A stretch of 45,453 bases of DNA, from positions 1 to 45,453 of IMG/VR virus record IMGVR_UViG_3300044710_000040; one strand, 5' to 3'. The notes under the pieces are model-generated. The model was given only the letters and a program-made list of their open reading frames with translations, was not told the origin of the DNA and did no database searches. Position 1 is the first letter of the stretch; every line of letters starts with the position of its first letter. The DNA is from a virus. A program made the position numbers and the translations under genes. Positions 8,946 to 30,602 of the stretch are shown here, in pieces.

Positions 8946-9442
8946 CGAACGATTGAATAAATATAGCAGTCTTGCGGCTCTGTACTCACATTCGGAAAAA
9001 ACTCAAAACGCCGCAACAGCCCTTCGCACTGCGCACCTATGCGCTCCGTCACGCGCTGGCCTTGGATATTGTCAACGTGTACATACGTCCACAGCCGCCA
9101 CGTTTGCGGGTGTATAAAAATCCACTGTACGAACGGCCTGCAAAACTCGCGACCGGCACCGCGTACTTTCCAATCCGACCGAAACATAATCGACATGGTT
9201 GCTTGATGCCGCGCAACCTCCAAGCCGACTACGCCTAAAATCTCATTGTTAGAACACACGGCTTGCCATTTTGTCGGGCTGTTGCGGTATTGCTCTATGA
9301 GTTGCGTTGCTTCGTCCACGGATTTGTGCGTACGAAAGCCTAAATAGCGCGTCACGTCGGGATTACCTGTCAGTACGAATAACTGCGACCCTTCCCATGG
9401 GTTTAGATCGCGCATGGTGAAACGGCCGACTTGTGCGGTCAT
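8942..9442 (-). CDS. GNAT-family acetyltransferase (RimJ/RimL-like)
   Basis: A 166-residue GNAT protein. The fold elements are the RFTMRDLNPWEG start strand, the helix TQLIEQYR, ILGVVGLEV, the acetyl-CoA region around WKVRGAGREFCRPFVQWIF, and the RimL-type DNIQGQRVTERIGAQCEGLLRR. It would move an acetyl group from acetyl-CoA to an amine; the target is unknown. ATG 9442 overlaps the methyltransferase stop (ATGA) and has TGGGA upstream, so it is the last gene of the polymerase-helicase-methyltransferase unit. The tight pairing raises the idea of a DNA modification role, but the sequence looks like a protein or small-molecule acetylase. Confidence 0.8.
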   Translation of the reverse strand: MTAQVGRFTMRDLNPWEGSQLFVLTGNPDVTRYLGFRTHKSVDEATQLIEQYRNSPTKWQAVCSNNEILGVVGLEVARHQATMSIMFRSDWKVRGAGREFCRPFVQWIFIHPQTWRLWTYVHVDNIQGQRVTERIGAQCEGLLRRFEFFPNVSTEPQDCYIYSIVR

Positions 9443-10500
9443 GATTCCCACGGCATTTTTGGCGGCGCAAGAATGTCTGCAGGTACGATCTCCATACGAC
9501 GCGGAAATTGCATGTATCTTTCGACCTCAGGCACAATCTCACTCTTCGCACCGCGCTCGCAATTTTGTACAGCTTGGCGCCAGTACGACGGTTTTAGTTC
9601 GGCGCCGATCGCACGACGTCCCATTTGCAGAGATACGTACAATTCCGAGCCAATGCCAGCAAAAGGTGAAAGCACAGTATCGCCGGGGTTGCTCCAAAGC
9701 TCCAGGCATCGCCGGATCGGCGTGAGCTGTAGCGGCGATATGTGCGCTTCATCGGTTTCCTCACGCGCTTCTTTGCGAGATAGCACGTCGCCTTGTGCAA
9801 TGTCGTCCCATACCGGCTCTGCGTACCGCTGCCATACTGCAATGCTGTACTGCTTCGTGCCGGGTGACGCAATGCACGGTATCATCTTTTCTTCTTCTTC
9901 GCTCCATTCTCGACTTGGTAGCGTGCCGTTAACTGTAGTTTCAGAACCGTAGTAAGCGTCGAATTGTCCCGCAATCGGCTCTGGGTTGTCGCCGGGCTTG
10001 CGCATGGTGACGATGTAATCGGGGATTGCCATGCGCGACATGCTCGAATCCTTAACAATTTGCTTATGCAGCAAACCGATCGCTTTCGTTCGCTGCATCG
10101 CCGACACCGGGTCCTTTCGGATGCAGACCTCGGAGTGGTAGTAAAAACCTACCTCCTGGTGCGCTTTGATGATGTCGCCGCGAAAATCGCGCAGCCCGAT
10201 GAAACCATCCCGCAATTTGGACGTTGGCAAGTTCATGCAATGTATTGATACAAGCCGGCCGGGCTTGGTGACGCGATAGACCTCGGCAATTAAAAATTTA
10301 TAGTGTTGCCAGAAATCAGCATCCGCTCGGCAATTGCTCATGTCGCGCGGGTCGTCTGAGAACGTGTACAGCGAAATAAACGGCGGTGAATAGATAGTGT
10401 AGTGTACGGATTCATTTGGCAATGCGCGTATTACGGCAACGCAATCGCCGTTCCAAAGATGCCAGTCCTTACCGGACGCTTGGTCAATCACCGCAGCCAT
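9439..10500 (-). CDS. DNA methyltransferase, β-class (N4-C or N6-A)
   Basis: A 353-residue amino-methyltransferase. The catalytic motif SPPF lies at residues 38-41, and the AdoMet-binding motif SPFAGIGSE comes near residue 290, giving the β order (catalytic before cofactor site). The SPP form is commonest in N4-cytosine enzymes but also occurs in N6-adenine ones. The MGRRAIGAELKPSYWRQA segment follows, as expected. No restriction endonuclease is adjacent, so it is probably an orphan protecting phage DNA or marking it. A strong GGAGG precedes ATG 10500; the start overlaps the helicase end. It ends in KMPWES, a tail shared with other early proteins here. Confidence 0.85.
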   Translation of the reverse strand: MAAVIDQASGKDWHLWNGDCVAVIRALPNESVHYTIYSPPFISLYTFSDDPRDMSNCRADADFWQHYKFLIAEVYRVTKPGRLVSIHCMNLPTSKLRDGFIGLRDFRGDIIKAHQEVGFYYHSEVCIRKDPVSAMQRTKAIGLLHKQIVKDSSMSRMAIPDYIVTMRKPGDNPEPIAGQFDAYYGSETTVNGTLPSREWSEEEEKMIPCIASPGTKQYSIAVWQRYAEPVWDDIAQGDVLSRKEAREETDEAHISPLQLTPIRRCLELWSNPGDTVLSPFAGIGSELYVSLQMGRRAIGAELKPSYWRQAVQNCERGAKSEIVPEVERYMQFPRRMEIVPADILAPPKMPWES

Positions 10501-24409: not shown

Positions 24410-24618
24410 GACGCGGTCTCGCTTCTGCACCTGTCAGGGTAGCCTACCCAACGCGGGACGCATTTTTCCCATGTCGGATGAAATTTACGGCTGCCCTTAT
24501 GTGATGACACGTTCGATATGAAGCGCCAGCCGGGGCCGTTTGGGTAGTAGACAGCGGCACCTAATTTATACTCCGCGCCCTGGGCGAGCGTGCGGAAAAA
24601 TGTGATGGTTTTCGTCAT
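24406..24618 (-). CDS. Small conserved phage protein (CVPRWVGYPD type)
   Basis: A 70-residue protein with the widespread motif YYPNGPGWRFISNVSSHKGS, then RKFHPTWEKCVPRWVGYP. Common beside the preceding family in proteobacterial phages. ATGA overlaps at both ends. Role unknown. Confidence 0.75.
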   Translation of the reverse strand: MTKTITFFRTLAQGAEYKLGAAVYYPNGPGWRFISNVSSHKGSRKFHPTWEKCVPRWVGYPDRCRSETAS

Positions 24619-24782
24619 GGCGTTTCCCCTTCAACGCAGGGACCGACAACGCGGAGTCCGTCCACCAGCGAACAGTTCGCGTCCACAAGGCGCTCAAATC
24701 GCGCGGCGCCTTCGTAACTGCCGAACTCGCCCTCGTCGTTCATGTACAGGTCGGCATCGGGGGTGTAGACTACGTAGAACAT
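24615..24782 (-). CDS. Hypothetical early protein, first gene after promoter A
   Basis: A 55-residue protein (MFYVVYTPDADLYMNDEGEF) with the shared CTGGAGAG ribosome site 5 bases upstream. It heads a unit transcribed from the TTGACA/ATGTACGTACAA promoter. Unknown function. Confidence 0.7.
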   Translation of the reverse strand: MFYVVYTPDADLYMNDEGEFGSYEGAARFERLVDANCSLVDGLRVVGPCVEGETP

Positions 24783-24809
24783 GTCGCTCTCCAGCGGTTC
24801 GTTGTTTCG

Positions 24810-24845
24810 ATGTACGTACAATAACGATTTACGGGATGGTGTCAA
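24810..24845 (-). promoter_or_regulatory. Promoter-operator A (TTGACA plus TGTACGTACA)
   Basis: TTGACA (24840-24845) and a -10-like TATTGT are 16 bases apart, and the palindrome TGTACGTACA (24811-24820) overlaps the -10 end and start site. It is one of three such elements in the window, followed by the CTGGAGAG leader. Confidence 0.7.
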
Positions 24846-24847
24846 TC

Positions 24848-24871
24848 CTACCAGCGGTGAATTAAGTCAAT
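24848..24871 (-). pseudogene. 3' fragment of the small membrane gene split by the IS
   Basis: Read through one copy of the target repeat, this fragment supplies the lost end IDLIHRW and stop of the gene whose 5' part lies at 26553-26620. Joined, they give a 27-residue protein. Confidence 0.65.
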
Positions 24872-24914
24872 CATGCTTTTCGGCTTTACACATACAGGCC
24901 CCATGGGTTGATGG

Positions 24915-25943
24915 TCAGGCATGATGACTAGCCGTTCCGTCGTACAGCCCGTCATAGGTGGGCGCTTCGCCGTTGGCGCCAATGCCGAGCAAAGAGCGGA
25001 ACGAATTGAACGGATAGAAACGCCGGTTAAACCGGAACACGAACTCGTTGAGGTAAGCCTGCAAGTGCTTGGGGCTGACGCGGCCGTGGTGCGTGCCCTG
25101 CAACCAGCTTTTGAGGTTGCTGAAAACCAAATGGACGATGGGCAGGTATTCCTCAGCGACTTCCGGCTTGCCGCCTTCGATGACGGGCAAATGTTGGTAG
25201 CCGCGCTTGCCCAGCGAATTGTAGCTCCGGTAGGCGTCCGTGATGACAATGGCGCCCGGCTCTACGGCCTGCTCGACAAAGCCGCACAGGTCTTTCTCGC
25301 TGCGACCTTCGACGATTTCCAAGCGCAGCCGACCGGCGTACCGGCCGCCGCGCCGCATGGGCTTGTCGCCCTTTTTGGCCGGGCGGGTACGGACCTCAAC
25401 GGCGGCGCAGACCAGCACGGTATGATCGGGCTTGGGACCGCTGCCTTCGCCCCGCACCTTGCCGCCTATGTACGTTTCGTCGATTTCGACGTGATCGCCG
25501 CGCGCCAGATTGCCACCTATTCGGTCGCGGTTCTGGCGCACCATGCCCGCTCTCAGCTTGTGCAGAATTTGGAACGCCGTCTCGCGGGTAAGGCCAAGCT
25601 GGCGTTCGAATTGGACCGTCGAAATACCCGGTGTAACCGTGGCGACCAGATAGGCGCCCCAAAACCATGTCGTGAGCGGCGAATGCGTCCGGGCCATCAC
25701 GGTCCCGGTTGTCAGCGACGTTTGCTTGCGGCACTTGCGGCAGGTCAGCACGGCCGTCCGCGTCGCCATGCGGAATGGCTCGCCGCGCTCATGGCAATGC
25801 GGGCATTCAAAGCCCTTCGGCCACTTGGCACCCTCCAAATAGGCTGCGCAGGCCGTATCGTTCGGGAAAAGCCGCTGAAAATCCCGAAGCGACTTGGGGA
25901 ACGGCAGGTGTTCCCATTGCAGCACGTCGGCGTGCGGGGGCAT
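24915..25943 (-). CDS. IS1595-family (ISXO2-like) transposase
   Basis: A 342-residue transposase. The N-terminus has the zinc ribbon CPHC...CRKC (residues 47-73 or so) and the helical LTTGTVMARTHSPLTTWFWG region. The DDE domain shows EIDETYIGGK, VITDAYRSY, the HLVFSNLKSWLQGTHH block and FRFNRRFYPF. AAGGAGG precedes ATG 25943, which follows the upstream gene stop directly. All expected parts are intact, so the element should be active. Confidence 0.95.
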   Translation of the reverse strand: MPPHADVLQWEHLPFPKSLRDFQRLFPNDTACAAYLEGAKWPKGFECPHCHERGEPFRMATRTAVLTCRKCRKQTSLTTGTVMARTHSPLTTWFWGAYLVATVTPGISTVQFERQLGLTRETAFQILHKLRAGMVRQNRDRIGGNLARGDHVEIDETYIGGKVRGEGSGPKPDHTVLVCAAVEVRTRPAKKGDKPMRRGGRYAGRLRLEIVEGRSEKDLCGFVEQAVEPGAIVITDAYRSYNSLGKRGYQHLPVIEGGKPEVAEEYLPIVHLVFSNLKSWLQGTHHGRVSPKHLQAYLNEFVFRFNRRFYPFNSFRSLLGIGANGEAPTYDGLYDGTASHHA

Positions 25944-26285
25944 TTATGCCTCCTTCGCCTTGGCGGCTGGCAACGGGTCGCCATCGAACATCGCGAAGCC
26001 GCCGCGATTGGTCCGCTCGTAGAACAGGTCTACGCCCTTTCGCCGCATAACCTCGTTGGCGTCGATAAACGCCTGTTCAAGGCCAATAGGGTTGACCATT
26101 TCGTCTTGTGGGACAAGTTCCGCGACTCGGCCAAGCAGCCCAAGCGCGCCGAGATAGTTGCGATAGATGCGCGTTTGAAGATCGGGCCGCTTTTCGGCCG
26201 TGGCCTGACTATCAGGCGTCCAGAGCGTCCCCCGCTCGCGCAGGGGACGGTTGTCCCGTTCCACATAGGGGTTGGGGGCGCGCAT
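25944..26285 (-). CDS. IS passenger protein B, unknown
   Basis: A 113-residue protein inside the IS (starts MRAPNPYVERDNRPLRERGT). A charged start is followed by helices TRIYRNYLGALGLLGRVAEL and GLEQAFIDANEVMRRKGVDL. Its stop touches the transposase ATG, so both are made together. Most IS1595 elements carry only a transposase; this and the next gene are extra. I do not recognise a family. Confidence 0.75.
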   Translation of the reverse strand: MRAPNPYVERDNRPLRERGTLWTPDSQATAEKRPDLQTRIYRNYLGALGLLGRVAELVPQDEMVNPIGLEQAFIDANEVMRRKGVDLFYERTNRGGFAMFDGDPLPAAKAKEA

Positions 26286-26287
26286 GG

Positions 26288-26470
26288 TTATCGCCCCCGG
26301 CCTAGCGTGATGGTGCCGATGGACGACAACTCGCGGGCCATTTCTTCCGGGTCCCGCAGGTCGGTTTCTTCGGCTTCGCCATTTGCGACTGCATCCGAAT
26401 ACCAAGTGCGGATTTGGGCCTCTGACACAAAGCGGCGTTCGGGCCAGATAATCTCAAATCGACGGTCCAT
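26288..26470 (-). CDS. IS passenger protein A, unknown
   Basis: A 60-residue protein (MDRRFEIIWPERRFVSEAQI) with an aromatic basic start, a helix and an acidic middle (ETDLRDPEEMARELS). AGGAG precedes the ATG. First gene after the IS promoter, with 2 bases to gene B. It may be a small regulator or helper of transposition; unknown. Confidence 0.7.
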   Translation of the reverse strand: MDRRFEIIWPERRFVSEAQIRTWYSDAVANGEAEETDLRDPEEMARELSSIGTITLGRGR

Positions 26471-26509
26471 TTTGCCTCTCCTATCGGGGCGACCACCGCC
26501 CCATGCCCT

Positions 26510-26620
26510 CTATCTAGCACAGAGGGCTGTATGTGTCAACCCGAAAAGCATGAAGTCAATGATTTCGACTAGTAGGATTAACAGCAGCAGGACGTTATCG
26601 TACCGGCTCCAGTCGGTCAC
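26510..26620 (-). pseudogene. Small membrane gene truncated by the IS
   Basis: GTG 26620 overlaps the preceding TGA (GTGA). The frame reads MTDWSRYDNVLLLLILLVEI and would have ended IDLIHRW before the insertion; it now runs into the IS and stops at 26510 with 14 foreign residues. A single membrane span remains, so the product may still insert. Confidence 0.6.
26511..26539 (-). promoter_or_regulatory. IS promoter in the right inverted end
   Basis: TTGACA (26534-26539) and TAGATA (26511-26516) are 17 bases apart. The -35 lies inside the right inverted repeat and drives genes A, B and the transposase inward. The matching place in the left end reads TTTACA. Confidence 0.75.
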
Positions 26621-26814
26621 GGCTCGACAACAACGCCGGCGGTGTTAACCGTGTGGTCACCGATGGCGTCGCTAATCTTTTCGGCCAAGTCATTCGCGTC
26701 GCTCTCGGTGACCGCGTTCAGCGTCAAACCACCTATTTTGACGTTGTAAACTACCGAACCGTCACTCAAGGTTTCGGGAACCACGAAAACAATAAAGTCA
26801 GGTGCGTCTGCCAT
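26617..26814 (-). CDS. Hypothetical early protein, first gene after promoter C
   Basis: A 65-residue protein (MADAPDFIVFVVPETLSDGS) with strands and a helix DANDLAEKISDAIG. The shared CTGGAGAG lies 5 bases before the ATG. Expressed from the palindrome-bearing promoter C. Unknown. Confidence 0.7.
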   Translation of the reverse strand: MADAPDFIVFVVPETLSDGSVVYNVKIGGLTLNAVTESDANDLAEKISDAIGDHTVNTAGVVVEP

Positions 26815-26841
26815 GGTGCTCTCCAGCGTTAGGCGTCTTCG

Positions 26842-26879
26842 ATGTACGTACATGTACACCCACTCTAAAGCCTTGTCAA
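26842..26879 (-). promoter_or_regulatory. Promoter-operator C (TTGACA plus ATGTACGTACAT)
   Basis: TTGACA (26874-26879) is followed by the 12-bp perfect palindrome ATGTACGTACAT (26842-26853). The -10 is less clear (TACATG at 17 bases or ACATGT at 18). The -35 lies just past the stop of the upstream gene. Confidence 0.65.
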
Positions 26880-27407
26880 CTACTCCCAAGGCATTTTTAC
26901 ACCATTATTTGCCCGTAGGGCTTTTGTGGATTCTGCCATGGTCAGGGGTTCCGGCGGCAGCTTATACACAGGTTTTGGCACTGCGGGGGCCGGCGTGCGC
27001 TCCGCGAGCAGTTCCTTCAGTTGTGCGTACAAACCCGTCAGTTCCTCTTTCATGGTCGCGTTTGCCGATCGCAGCCGTTCCAGTTCCTCCGTTACGCTGG
27101 GCGCCACAGCCGTTTGTGCGGTCGCCGGTGCGTCACCGGCAACCGGCCTGGACTTACCGCCACGCGAGCCAGGACCGCCGGCCTTGCGCTCCGCTCTGCA
27201 CTTTGGGCAGTTGCGCAACAGCAGCCCGGCGTTCTTTTTGGTGCCCTCGAGCGCCTTTCTGGTTACGTCCAGGCTAATTTCAGTGCCGCACGTTGCACAA
27301 GGCCGTACAACACGGTAAAGATGGATGTAGTCGCCGTTCCAGTATTTCGTAACTGGCTCGCCACTTTGCCAGCCGTCCGGTAGTTGGCCTTCGTATTTCG
27401 CGTGCAT
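26880..27407 (-). CDS. Zinc-finger and coiled-coil early protein
   Basis: A 175-residue protein. Residues 37-70 carry CATC and CPKC pairs, a zinc ribbon. A Gly/Arg/Pro linker leads to a predicted coiled coil (VTEELERLRSANATMKEELT) and a Pro-rich tail ending NNGVKMPWE. It may bind DNA or RNA through the ribbon and partners through the coil or tail. AAGGAAG precedes the ATG. Unknown function; the PW tail is shared with the methyltransferase and primase. Confidence 0.75.
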   Translation of the reverse strand: MHAKYEGQLPDGWQSGEPVTKYWNGDYIHLYRVVRPCATCGTEISLDVTRKALEGTKKNAGLLLRNCPKCRAERKAGGPGSRGGKSRPVAGDAPATAQTAVAPSVTEELERLRSANATMKEELTGLYAQLKELLAERTPAPAVPKPVYKLPPEPLTMAESTKALRANNGVKMPWE

Positions 27408-27419
27408 GACGCTTCCTTT

Positions 27420-27701
27420 TCAGTCGCAATGGCCGGCTGCCTGGTGTTTCAGAGTCTGGATTCGGGTGAGCATTTCAGTGCGGTCGGTAAAGGTTTTTTC
27501 AAAAAGATGTTTGAGCTCAGTAGCTGCTCTGGTTGGGTCGGTTTCGCCTTTGCCATACGACATAACTATGCCGCCGTGCAACAGTGCCATGTACTTGCGC
27601 CATGGCTTGCCGTTGACGCGCCGCCGTACAATTTGAAACGTTTCGCCCAGGTGCTCGACTGTTGCCAGTATCCGGGCGCCTTTATAATCCTCGGTCTGCA
27701 T
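27420..27701 (-). CDS. Hypothetical early protein beside the control region
   Basis: A 93-residue protein (MQTEDYKGARILATVEHLGE) with strands, a basic RRRVNGKPWRKY stretch and a helical C-terminus. The leader has CTGGAGAG but no TGTACGTACA palindrome, so it may be driven from the TGTAAA control region instead. Unknown. Confidence 0.7.
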   Translation of the reverse strand: MQTEDYKGARILATVEHLGETFQIVRRRVNGKPWRKYMALLHGGIVMSYGKGETDPTRAATELKHLFEKTFTDRTEMLTRIQTLKHQAAGHCD

Positions 27702-27728
27702 GTCACTCTCCAGTGGTTTGTATGGCAC

Positions 27729-27973
27729 CCTTCTACATCCCTCAAAAAGAGTTGTAAAGAGTTTTTGTGAAAAACTGTGAATTTTATTTTACACCATAAA
27801 TTTGTTGTAAATTTACTACAGTGCAGGATTGTAAACTCACAGTGAAAAGCTGTAAATTTACAGCGTACATATTCAATCAGCCCCTCAAGTGGTGGGGTGT
27901 GCAAGCTAAGCAGTACACACCCACTAGACGAGGGGGACACAGGAAGAGTATCATCCAATCGGAGGCAGTTACT
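27729..27973. promoter_or_regulatory. AT-rich divergent control region
   Basis: This gap separates the two early arms. It is far more AT-rich than the rest and holds six TGTAAA/TTTACA boxes (27753, 27788, 27806, 27830, 27851, 27857). Minus-sense TTTACA (27753-27758) with TAGAAG 17 bases on is a possible leftward promoter. A factor binding the boxes could switch both arms; the AT content also fits an origin. Confidence 0.6.
27849..27864. promoter_or_regulatory. Perfect 16-bp operator palindrome
   Basis: GCTGTAAATTTACAGC is a perfect inverted repeat. A near copy, GTTGTAAATTTACTAC (27804-27819), lies 45 bases away centre to centre, as for cooperative dimers. Confidence 0.65.
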
Positions 27974-28438
27974 ATGAGTAACCTAGTCACTTTAAGTAAC
28001 TACGCACGGCTGCCCGAACTGGCCGTACAGACGGTTGCACGCAATAGCGCGGCCATTTATAAGCTTGTACGGATGAAAAGCCCGACTTTGACGACAGCCT
28101 GCAGGCAAGCCGGATTGCCGATTGAACTGGCGGAACTTTGCGGTGGATTGCTTGCAAGCGTGGTTGACGACCTTGTGAGCATCGGCAATCTGCGGCGTAC
28201 GGATTTTGAACGCACGAAGCGTAAGCAACGCGTTCTGGCGGCTGCCGACGAGCCTGCAGCGTCAGCCTTGCGGATTGCCATCGTTGCCTCGCCGGTCAAT
28301 GGGCGAGCGGCTGTGGCCCATTGGGACGCCATCTGTGAGGGTTACGAACTCGGCAAGCTGGCGTGGCTTTTGGGCATGGACACCGAAACGAGCTGGGGTT
28401 ACGGTCGGCGGTTGGAAAAGCGAAATAATCGTAATTAG
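27974..28438 (+). CDS. Candidate early regulator, unknown family
   Basis: A 154-residue protein starting MSNLVTLSNYARLPELAVQ. It is basic and helical, with RTDFERTKRKQR in the middle and a helix-turn-helix-like end (AICEGYELGKLAWLLGMDTE then TSWGYGRRLEKR). GGAGG lies 8 bases before ATG 27974; the longer frame upstream runs through the operator region and is rejected. As the first gene right of the control region, it is the best candidate for the protein that binds the TGTAAA boxes. That is inference; I recognise no family. Confidence 0.65.
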   Translation: MSNLVTLSNYARLPELAVQTVARNSAAIYKLVRMKSPTLTTACRQAGLPIELAELCGGLLASVVDDLVSIGNLRRTDFERTKRKQRVLAAADEPAASALRIAIVASPVNGRAAVAHWDAICEGYELGKLAWLLGMDTETSWGYGRRLEKRNNRN

Positions 28439-28441
28439 TGC

Positions 28442-28477
28442 TTGACAGGGTTTTGGCGCGTGCTAGTGTACGTACAT
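28442..28477 (+). promoter_or_regulatory. Promoter-operator B (TTGACA plus TGTACGTACA)
   Basis: TTGACA (28442-28447), 16-base spacer, extended -10 TGC then TAGTGT (28464-28469), and the palindrome TGTACGTACA (28467-28476). The leader then matches promoter A closely (CATCGAAACA, then CGCTGGAGAGCGA). Confidence 0.75.
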
Positions 28478-28504
28478 CGAAACACAAACCGCTGGAGAGC
28501 GAAA

Positions 28505-28915
28505 ATGAATACGAACATCCCCGCCTTAGCCACCGTCTACGCCGATCTCGAATCAGTGCTTGCCAAGTTGCAAGCCATCAACGCCGACGCCATCGAGAGC
28601 GCCAACCTCGTGCCGATGGTCAAGGCCGTACAGGCTATCGGCGCATTTCAGGCTGCTATCGACGCACAGATCCAGGCGCGTGCGATCGGCAATGGCGAAC
28701 TGATTCCCGGTGTTGTCGTCAAGGACAGCGTTGTGCATCGCCGCTGGTCTGATCCCGAAACCGCTGCACAGCTCGCACAAGAGACGCTCGGCGATAAGGC
28801 GTTCAAGCGCGAATTGCTGTCGCCGGCACAAATGGAAAAGCTGGGCGACGAAGGCAAGTCGTTTGTTGCCGTGGCTTCGTTCAAGCCGGAAGCTGGTAAA
28901 AGAGTCGTCTATTAA
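28505..28915 (+). CDS. Stand-alone DUF2800 C-terminal module
   Basis: A 136-residue protein. Residues 1-60 are helical (LESVLAKLQAINADAIESAN). Residues 62-136 repeat the C-terminal module of the DUF2800 nuclease at 15080-16060: both show PG.V.K, W.D.E.AA, SPAQ.EKLG..GK, AV and KPE, ending in Tyr. The nuclease domain itself is missing. It is expressed from promoter B, with CTGGAGAG before the ATG. It may guide, load or inhibit the nuclease, or bind the same partner. Confidence 0.75.
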   Translation: MNTNIPALATVYADLESVLAKLQAINADAIESANLVPMVKAVQAIGAFQAAIDAQIQARAIGNGELIPGVVVKDSVVHRRWSDPETAAQLAQETLGDKAFKRELLSPAQMEKLGDEGKSFVAVASFKPEAGKRVVY

Positions 28916-29944: not shown

Positions 29945-30138
29945 ATCTGCAAGAATTCTCCGCGCTCAAAGTCGGCGACAAGATCGAAAATCACGCCATC
30001 GGTGGCACCGGTCACGGCGAGATTGTCGAATGTACGCCCAGCGGTGTACGTGTCGTGTGGGGGCCGCGCCACGAACGCGAAACGAAGTTTTTCTATAGTG
30101 TTGTCGGCACGGCTTGGATGCCGTGGAGCAAAGTGTGA
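29941..30138 (+). CDS. SH3-like small early protein
   Basis: A 65-residue β-rich protein (ALKVGDKIENHAIGGTGHGE then IVECTPSGVRVVWGPRHE). It ends TAWMPWSKV. Coupled on both sides (ATGA, TGATG). Unknown function. Confidence 0.65.
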   Translation: MNLQEFSALKVGDKIENHAIGGTGHGEIVECTPSGVRVVWGPRHERETKFFYSVVGTAWMPWSKV

Positions 30139-30602
30139 TGGGCGCCCCGCAGGTAATTAAATGGACGATCGAGCGTGAAGCAAAATTTCGTAAGCTGCAC
30201 GCCCAAGGATATTCATTTAGCGATATTGCTGCTCAGTTAGGTTTTCCGGGGGAGCGTAATGCGTGCATCGGGAAAGCACACCGTCTTGGTTTAGGGGAGC
30301 GTCCGCAGAGCACCAAAGACAGATCGAAGACACGGCCAAAGGTTAAGCGCCTCACTAATCACGGCAACCGCTTCGATCATGTCGAAATAAATGCGCCGGC
30401 TCTATTGCCGATCCTTTCTGACGGTTCCGATACTCCAGCTGCACAGCGCTGTACACTATTGCAACTTAACAGTGGCGTTTGCAAATGGCCGTTCGGCGAG
30501 CCCGCGTCGCCTGATTTCTTTTTCTGCGGTGGCGACGCTATCGAGGGTAAGCCGTACTGTGCGGAGCATTGCAGGCTCGCTCATAAGACTTCTTGGGCCT
30601 AA
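30138..30602 (+). CDS. GcrA-family transcription regulator
   Basis: A 154-residue GcrA homologue. The N-terminal HTH reads KWTIEREAKFRKLHAQGYSF, then SDIAAQLGFPGERNACIGKA; the C-terminal part has the GcrA cysteine pattern CKWPFGEPASPDFFFCGGDA, then GKPYCAEHC. In alphaproteobacteria GcrA binds RNA polymerase with σ70 and works at promoters, often guided by GANTC methylation. A phage copy placed just before the giant ejection gene could switch on late transcription. ATG 30138 overlaps the previous TGA (TGATG). Confidence 0.85.
   Translation: MGAPQVIKWTIEREAKFRKLHAQGYSFSDIAAQLGFPGERNACIGKAHRLGLGERPQSTKDRSKTRPKVKRLTNHGNRFDHVEINAPALLPILSDGSDTPAAQRCTLLQLNSGVCKWPFGEPASPDFFFCGGDAIEGKPYCAEHCRLAHKTSWA

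Follow-up and report, generated by a model that had tools for sequence, protein, structure and literature searches.

A repeated promoter-leader module with an operator-like palindrome precedes small genes in a family of uncultured phages

In T4-type phages, small genes are reportedly carried together with an early promoter and a conserved element, in the mobile regulatory cassettes of Arbiol et al. 2010, which are said to consist of a promoter and a stem-loop and to contain no series of operator palindromes. In the Cluster K mycobacteriophages, a short conserved leader (SAS) lies just upstream of many start codons, and a subset (ESAS) has in addition an upstream SigA-like promoter with a -35/-10 spacing of 17-18 and an inverted repeat (PMC3203893, PMC11373665). 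The consensus of the ESAS repeat varies by subcluster, and repression is deemed plausible by the authors of those studies (PMC3203893, PMC11373665). Here we describe a module of comparable layout in the window, that is, the whole 45,453-base stretch of viral DNA that was analysed, and in its relatives.

Three sites in the window, designated A, B, and C (Table 1), each comprise a TTGACA-N16/17-(-10) promoter, the palindrome TGTACGTACA spanning the -10/start region, and the leader CTGGAGAG preceding an ATG. Direct reading of the sequence agreed with the initial annotation, which had described the same parts at coordinates that proved correct, and placed the start codon of B at 28505. All three exact copies of TGTACGTACA in the window are those at A, B, and C, each at a TTGACA promoter followed by the CTGGAGAG leader and ATG; with at most one mismatch, 8 sites were found against 0.98 expected, a number reached in none of 100 shuffles. 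A window search for TTGACA-N17..25-GTACATCGAA, a variant of the search that the initial annotation had proposed, returned A and B, with 0.00 matches expected, and C contains the same parts with a spacing 2 bp wider. When the window was scanned for TTGAC[AG]-N16/17-TA, the four of the 8 matches having exact TTGACA were A, B, C, and the end of an insertion sequence (IS). The leader CTGGAGAG occurs 5 times (0.37 expected), namely at A, B, C, the gene starting at 27701, and 23721 inside a coding frame. The 27701 gene had been thought to keep the leader only, and the palindrome is indeed absent from its promoter.

Table 1 Features of the window and positions of a further element in relatives
Feature	Position	Strand	Details
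All exact TGTACGTACA copies	24811-24820, 26843-26852, 28467-28476		
Module A	24780..24845	-	-35 TTGACA 24845-24840; -10 TATTGT 24823-24818 (family pattern)
Module A, downstream parts		-	TGTACGTACA 24820-24811; TCGAA 24810-24806; leader CTGGAGAG 24794-24787; ATG 24782
ORF under A	24615..24782	-	55 aa; without family match; without homologue in relatives
IS1595-family element	24864-26560		Transposase 24915-25943; inverted ends CATGCTTTTCGG; 8-bp target repeat AAGTCAAT; passenger ORFs
Module C	26812..26879	-	-35 26879-26874; -10 TACATG 26856-26851
Module C, downstream parts		-	Palindrome ATGTACGTACAT, core 26852-26843; leader 26826-26819; ATG 26814
ORF under C	26617..26814	-	65 aa
Gene R	26880..27407	-	Predicted beta domain with conserved Cys C37, C40, C67, and coiled coil; ends directly before promoter C
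Fourth gene, leader and ATG	27699..27713	-	CTGGAGAG 27713-27706; ORF 27420-27701; promoter without palindrome
Central repeats	GTAAATTTAC 27807-27816; TGTAAATTTACA 27851-27862		Putative sites of R type I
27974 protein	27974..28438	+	154 aa, all-helical; ends directly before promoter B; candidate regulator
Module B	28442..28507	+	-35 28442-28447; -10 TAGTGT 28464-28469
Module B, downstream parts		+	Palindrome 28467-28476; leader CTGGAGAG 28492-28499; ATG 28505
ORF under B	28505..28915	+	136 aa; matches C-terminal part of phage exonuclease family (phrog_69, DUF2800)
GcrA-family protein	30114..30602	+	PF07750, 1e-33
TGTAACAATT-type sites in relatives	G008 5613; G012 24522, 29406; G015 27274; G016 36032; G021 locus L289 5170		

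Relatives were collected by pattern scans of viral contigs and by a scan with the 27974 protein family; they form one uncultured phage family with shared genes (34 anchored loci), and 117 distinct module promoters were gathered from 31 family records, which may be fragments. The family consensus reads TTGACA, 16-17 bp, TACANN or TANTGT, and AACCG-CTGGAGAG-CG before the start codon, conservation being much higher in the 15-bp core of the leader than in the bases that precede it. Among 102 promoters with exact TTGAC, the best-fitting -10s mostly begin with TA and lie at 17 bp in 76 and at 16 bp in 22, which is sigma70-type spacing. In this family-wide reading, the -10 is TATTGT in A, TAGTGT in B, and TACATG in C, each behind a spacer of 16-17 bp; the last bases of the -10 are therefore shared with the palindrome, which would reach about +1 at the predicted start sites. 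The ORFs under the module are mostly 45-110 aa, with a few longer, and are unrelated between positions and phages; the ORF under C is unrelated to the 56-57 aa MIxRIKTD protein found there in most close relatives. The IS1595-family element (24872-26552) now separates A from the C gene, and without it the A promoter would lie ~90 bp after the C gene; its transposase had no BLAST match in 16 relatives, and the element was not found in plasmids. Upstream of module promoters, several relatives have a sequence of the TGTAACAATT type that in many cases ends in TAGACA and is possibly a further shared element. Record G003 (IMGVR_UViG_3300043252_000011, 98,428 bp) is of double length with two GcrA genes, and may represent two phage genomes joined in assembly, because its TGTACGTACA sites match the positions in G002 with a shift of 267 bp.

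A near-identity search of INPHARED with the phage gave no match, a primase search gave only a weak match to a Proteus phage, and a capsid search gave 19 distant phages, several of them of alphaproteobacteria. A scan of genome contigs with the leader pattern returned matches in many unrelated phyla, which were taken as mostly chance. An alphaproteobacterial host is suggested by these capsid relatives, by the GcrA gene, and by the strong avoidance of GANTC in the window (64 against 173 expected). CGTACG is over-represented in the window (46 against 13 by base composition), and a phage DNA methyltransferase gene lies at 9439-10500, whose close homologues are confined to G001 and G002 (that of G007 is at 36%).

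The palindrome is concentrated at promoters. In the window and relatives G001, G002, and G004-G007, exact TGTACGTACA lies at promoters in 17 of 20 copies, one of which (G007 35265) has a weak -35 only, and the other three lie in coding sequence. Over all 17 records, the density of 10-bp palindromes was 3.6-14 per kb at promoters versus 0.6-1.9 elsewhere (0.6-1.2 in the window and G001-G008). Several records had first been found with the palindrome pattern, which inflates the apparent conservation of TGTACGTACA in them, and the count was therefore repeated on genomes met independently of it; there, 14 of 62 promoters contained a 10-bp palindrome, against a control mean of 3.2 and maximum of 10 (200 draws). 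The initial annotation had named, as an outcome that would speak against it, a palindrome no more frequent at promoters than in general, and the opposite was observed. Perfect palindromes of at least 8 bp are present in 48 of 106 module promoters, many promoters being without one. With gene R as anchor, exact TGTACGTACA was found at position C in six and at position B in four of the eight members of the window's clade; the copy of G006 lies ~150 bp further on from B, and G004 and G011 have one mismatch at B.

Other 10-bp palindromes occupy the same module in other clades. TCCCTAGGGA has 10 copies in G009, G010, and G012 and is absent from the other 14 of 17 records; nine copies are at promoters, one of these without the CTGGAGAG leader, and the tenth is in the central region of G012. 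CGTTTAAACG is at promoters in G007, G013, G014, and G015 and makes a weaker case, because it also occurs elsewhere in those records. Counted from the first -35 base, the distance to the start of the palindrome is 7-9 nt for TCCYTARGGA and CGTTTAAACG and 24-27 nt for TGTACGTACA; both positions, behind the -35 and over the -10/start region, are common for operators. As would be expected of operators, the palindromes thus hold set positions within the promoter and are more frequent there than in the background, and we read this as turnover of operator identity between relatives on what appear to be early promoters of host sigma70 type.

The main rival gives part of the block a function at the start site or in the leader. 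TACGTACATCGAA, the right half of the palindrome, might be a core promoter or 5' leader element (discriminator, start site, and first transcribed bases) and no operator, its palindromic look arising from the abutting TATTGT or TACATG. Several phages with TCCCTAGGGA keep this half without symmetry (TGTACA-NN-TACGTACATCGAA), which is why part of the block may have such a function; the block also leads into a leader that is itself conserved. On the other hand, the start of the palindrome shifts by 2 bp relative to the -35 (25 or 27), TGTACGTACA also stands at a promoter with a different leader (G006 24661), and perfect palindromes of unrelated sequence stand at other places in this module, so that we hold this explanation to be unlikely. 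Another possibility is that the repeats are recombination substrates, that is, a mobile promoter cassette homogenised by phage exchange, with a palindrome of no regulatory role, as might be suggested by the small ORFs, which at a given place are unrelated from one relative to the next. However, in the class C promoters the -35/-10 spacer is only 40% identical, a divergence that exchange of whole cassettes would not leave, whereas the -10 is 92% identical (the 100% identity of the palindrome is partly by construction), and recombination would leave unexplained why palindromes that differ by clade stand at defined distances. This origin therefore appears improbable. Collectively, we consider it reasonably likely, from the sequence comparisons, that each of A, B, and C is a copy of one phage promoter-operator-leader module and that its palindrome is bound by a regulator dimer.

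Two window proteins, 27974 and GcrA, remain candidates only for the reader of TGTACGTACA; a ribbon-helix-helix protein, which the initial annotation had also put forward, was not detected among the window proteins scanned against Pfam. The 27974 protein is conserved throughout the family and is modelled as helical (pLDDT 90.7), and Foldseek and VIA-align matched it convincingly to no PDB fold. INPHARED contained no homologue of 27974, and none was found in 385 genomes of one bacterial class, a negative that carries no information because the search had no positive control. Phage-borne GcrA is known from phiCbK (PMC3556154), and the phage GcrA, rather than a repressor, might read TGTACGTACA and activate the promoters with sigma70. 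Indeed, among records of at least 40 kb, GcrA is present in 9/9 with TGTACGTACA at promoters versus 1-2/14 without (Fisher 1e-5 to 7e-5 without tree correction), but this association comprises just two independent contrasts on supported branches, and no cognate protein for TGTACGTACA survives the tree in the co-variation analysis. Moreover, known GcrA binding depends on adenosine methylation (PMC3667746), at GANTC, whereas GANTC is avoided in the window and is absent at A, B, and C, which in this respect differ from GcrA/CcrM-controlled promoters. We therefore regard activation by GcrA as very improbable.

Gene R probably has partner sites of its own. Its N-terminal type, assigned by eye from the protein sequence, co-varies in all family records with the repeats in the central divergent region (27720-27880). 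GT[GA]AATTTAC is present there in 9/9 records with R type I versus 0/21 others, and 6/6 independent tree pairs agree (p = 0.031); central-region TCCYTARGGA accompanies R type III in 7/9 versus 0/21 (4-5/6 pairs, p about 0.06-0.13). The tree used in both pair tests was built on ~150 residues and has strong support for 10 of its 29 inner branches. In the near-identical phages G013 and G014, 27974 is near-identical, and the R type and the central repeats differ. Because of this co-variation, including the G013/G014 pair, the central repeats are probably the sites of R, which would be a repressor or a replication initiator. The structure model of R is moderate (pLDDT 78), and Foldseek and VIA-align gave no convincing fold for it. 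R was rejected as the reader of TGTACGTACA, which accompanies R types I, II, III, III', and IV. R type III as the sole reader of TCCYTARGGA was weakened by G010, G027, and G028, which carry this palindrome at or near B or C with other R types. The initial annotation had proposed that one regulator controls a gene set on both strands; the shared promoter-leader module on both strands and the operator-like palindrome enriched at its promoters bear this out in part, whereas R, the protein at 26880, is unlikely to be that regulator, since TGTACGTACA stays while the R type changes.

In ~30 uncultured relatives, often with another palindrome, the module probably serves as a common on/off switch of early genes. 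In the mechanism that we propose, a host sigma70-type RNA polymerase would use TTGACA and the TATTGT or TACATG -10, and a regulator dimer on the 10-bp palindrome over the -10/start region may block or tune initiation; on TGTACGTACA, it would most likely compete with RNA polymerase at -10/+1. The AACCG-CTGGAGAG-CG leader would supply a standard ribosome site. Because several small genes, on the two strands alike, lie behind the module, a single protein could switch all of them at once, presumably early in infection. The leader and palindromes offer a search handle for small, otherwise unrecognisable genes in uncultured phages, grouping them into a likely regulon, and the co-variation of R with the adjacent repeats gives a natural set of specificity variants of a protein that probably binds DNA and whose fold is unmatched.

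Nothing on phage operators was found when the literature was searched for TGTACGTACA. As reported for the T4-type cassettes, a conserved element and a promoter, presumably early, accompany small genes here. The nearest described arrangement is the SAS/ESAS of the Cluster K phages, which have in common with the present family a leader at the start codon, an upstream promoter, and a clade-dependent inverted repeat. However, ESAS repeats have imperfect arms of 15-17 bp and a spacer, whereas the palindromes described here are perfect, 10 bp long, and placed over part of the -10 or behind the -35; the SAS sequence 5'-GGGATAGGAGCCC differs from the family leader consensus, AACCGCTGGAGAGCG; and the Cluster K phages belong to a different host group. 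The module thus resembles SAS/ESAS in layout and is not a member of it, because the sequences are unrelated. In heteroimmune phages, such as the lambdoid phages and Cluster A mycobacteriophages (PMC6550527), the layout is conserved and the operators differ, co-varying with the neighbouring regulator. The counterpart in the window family is gene R with the central repeats, although, unlike the operators of heteroimmune phages, TGTACGTACA and its reader do not vary with R. Among the proteins scanned, none was seen to be an integrase or the product of a lysogeny gene. Tentatively, and as a possibility that we still doubt, this lytic-looking family may combine one promoter-leader chassis and interchangeable small genes with an operator palindrome (TGTACGTACA, TCCYTARGGA, or CGTTTAAACG) that is swapped along with R and 27974, both of unmatched fold, forming a heteroimmunity-like series without lysogeny.
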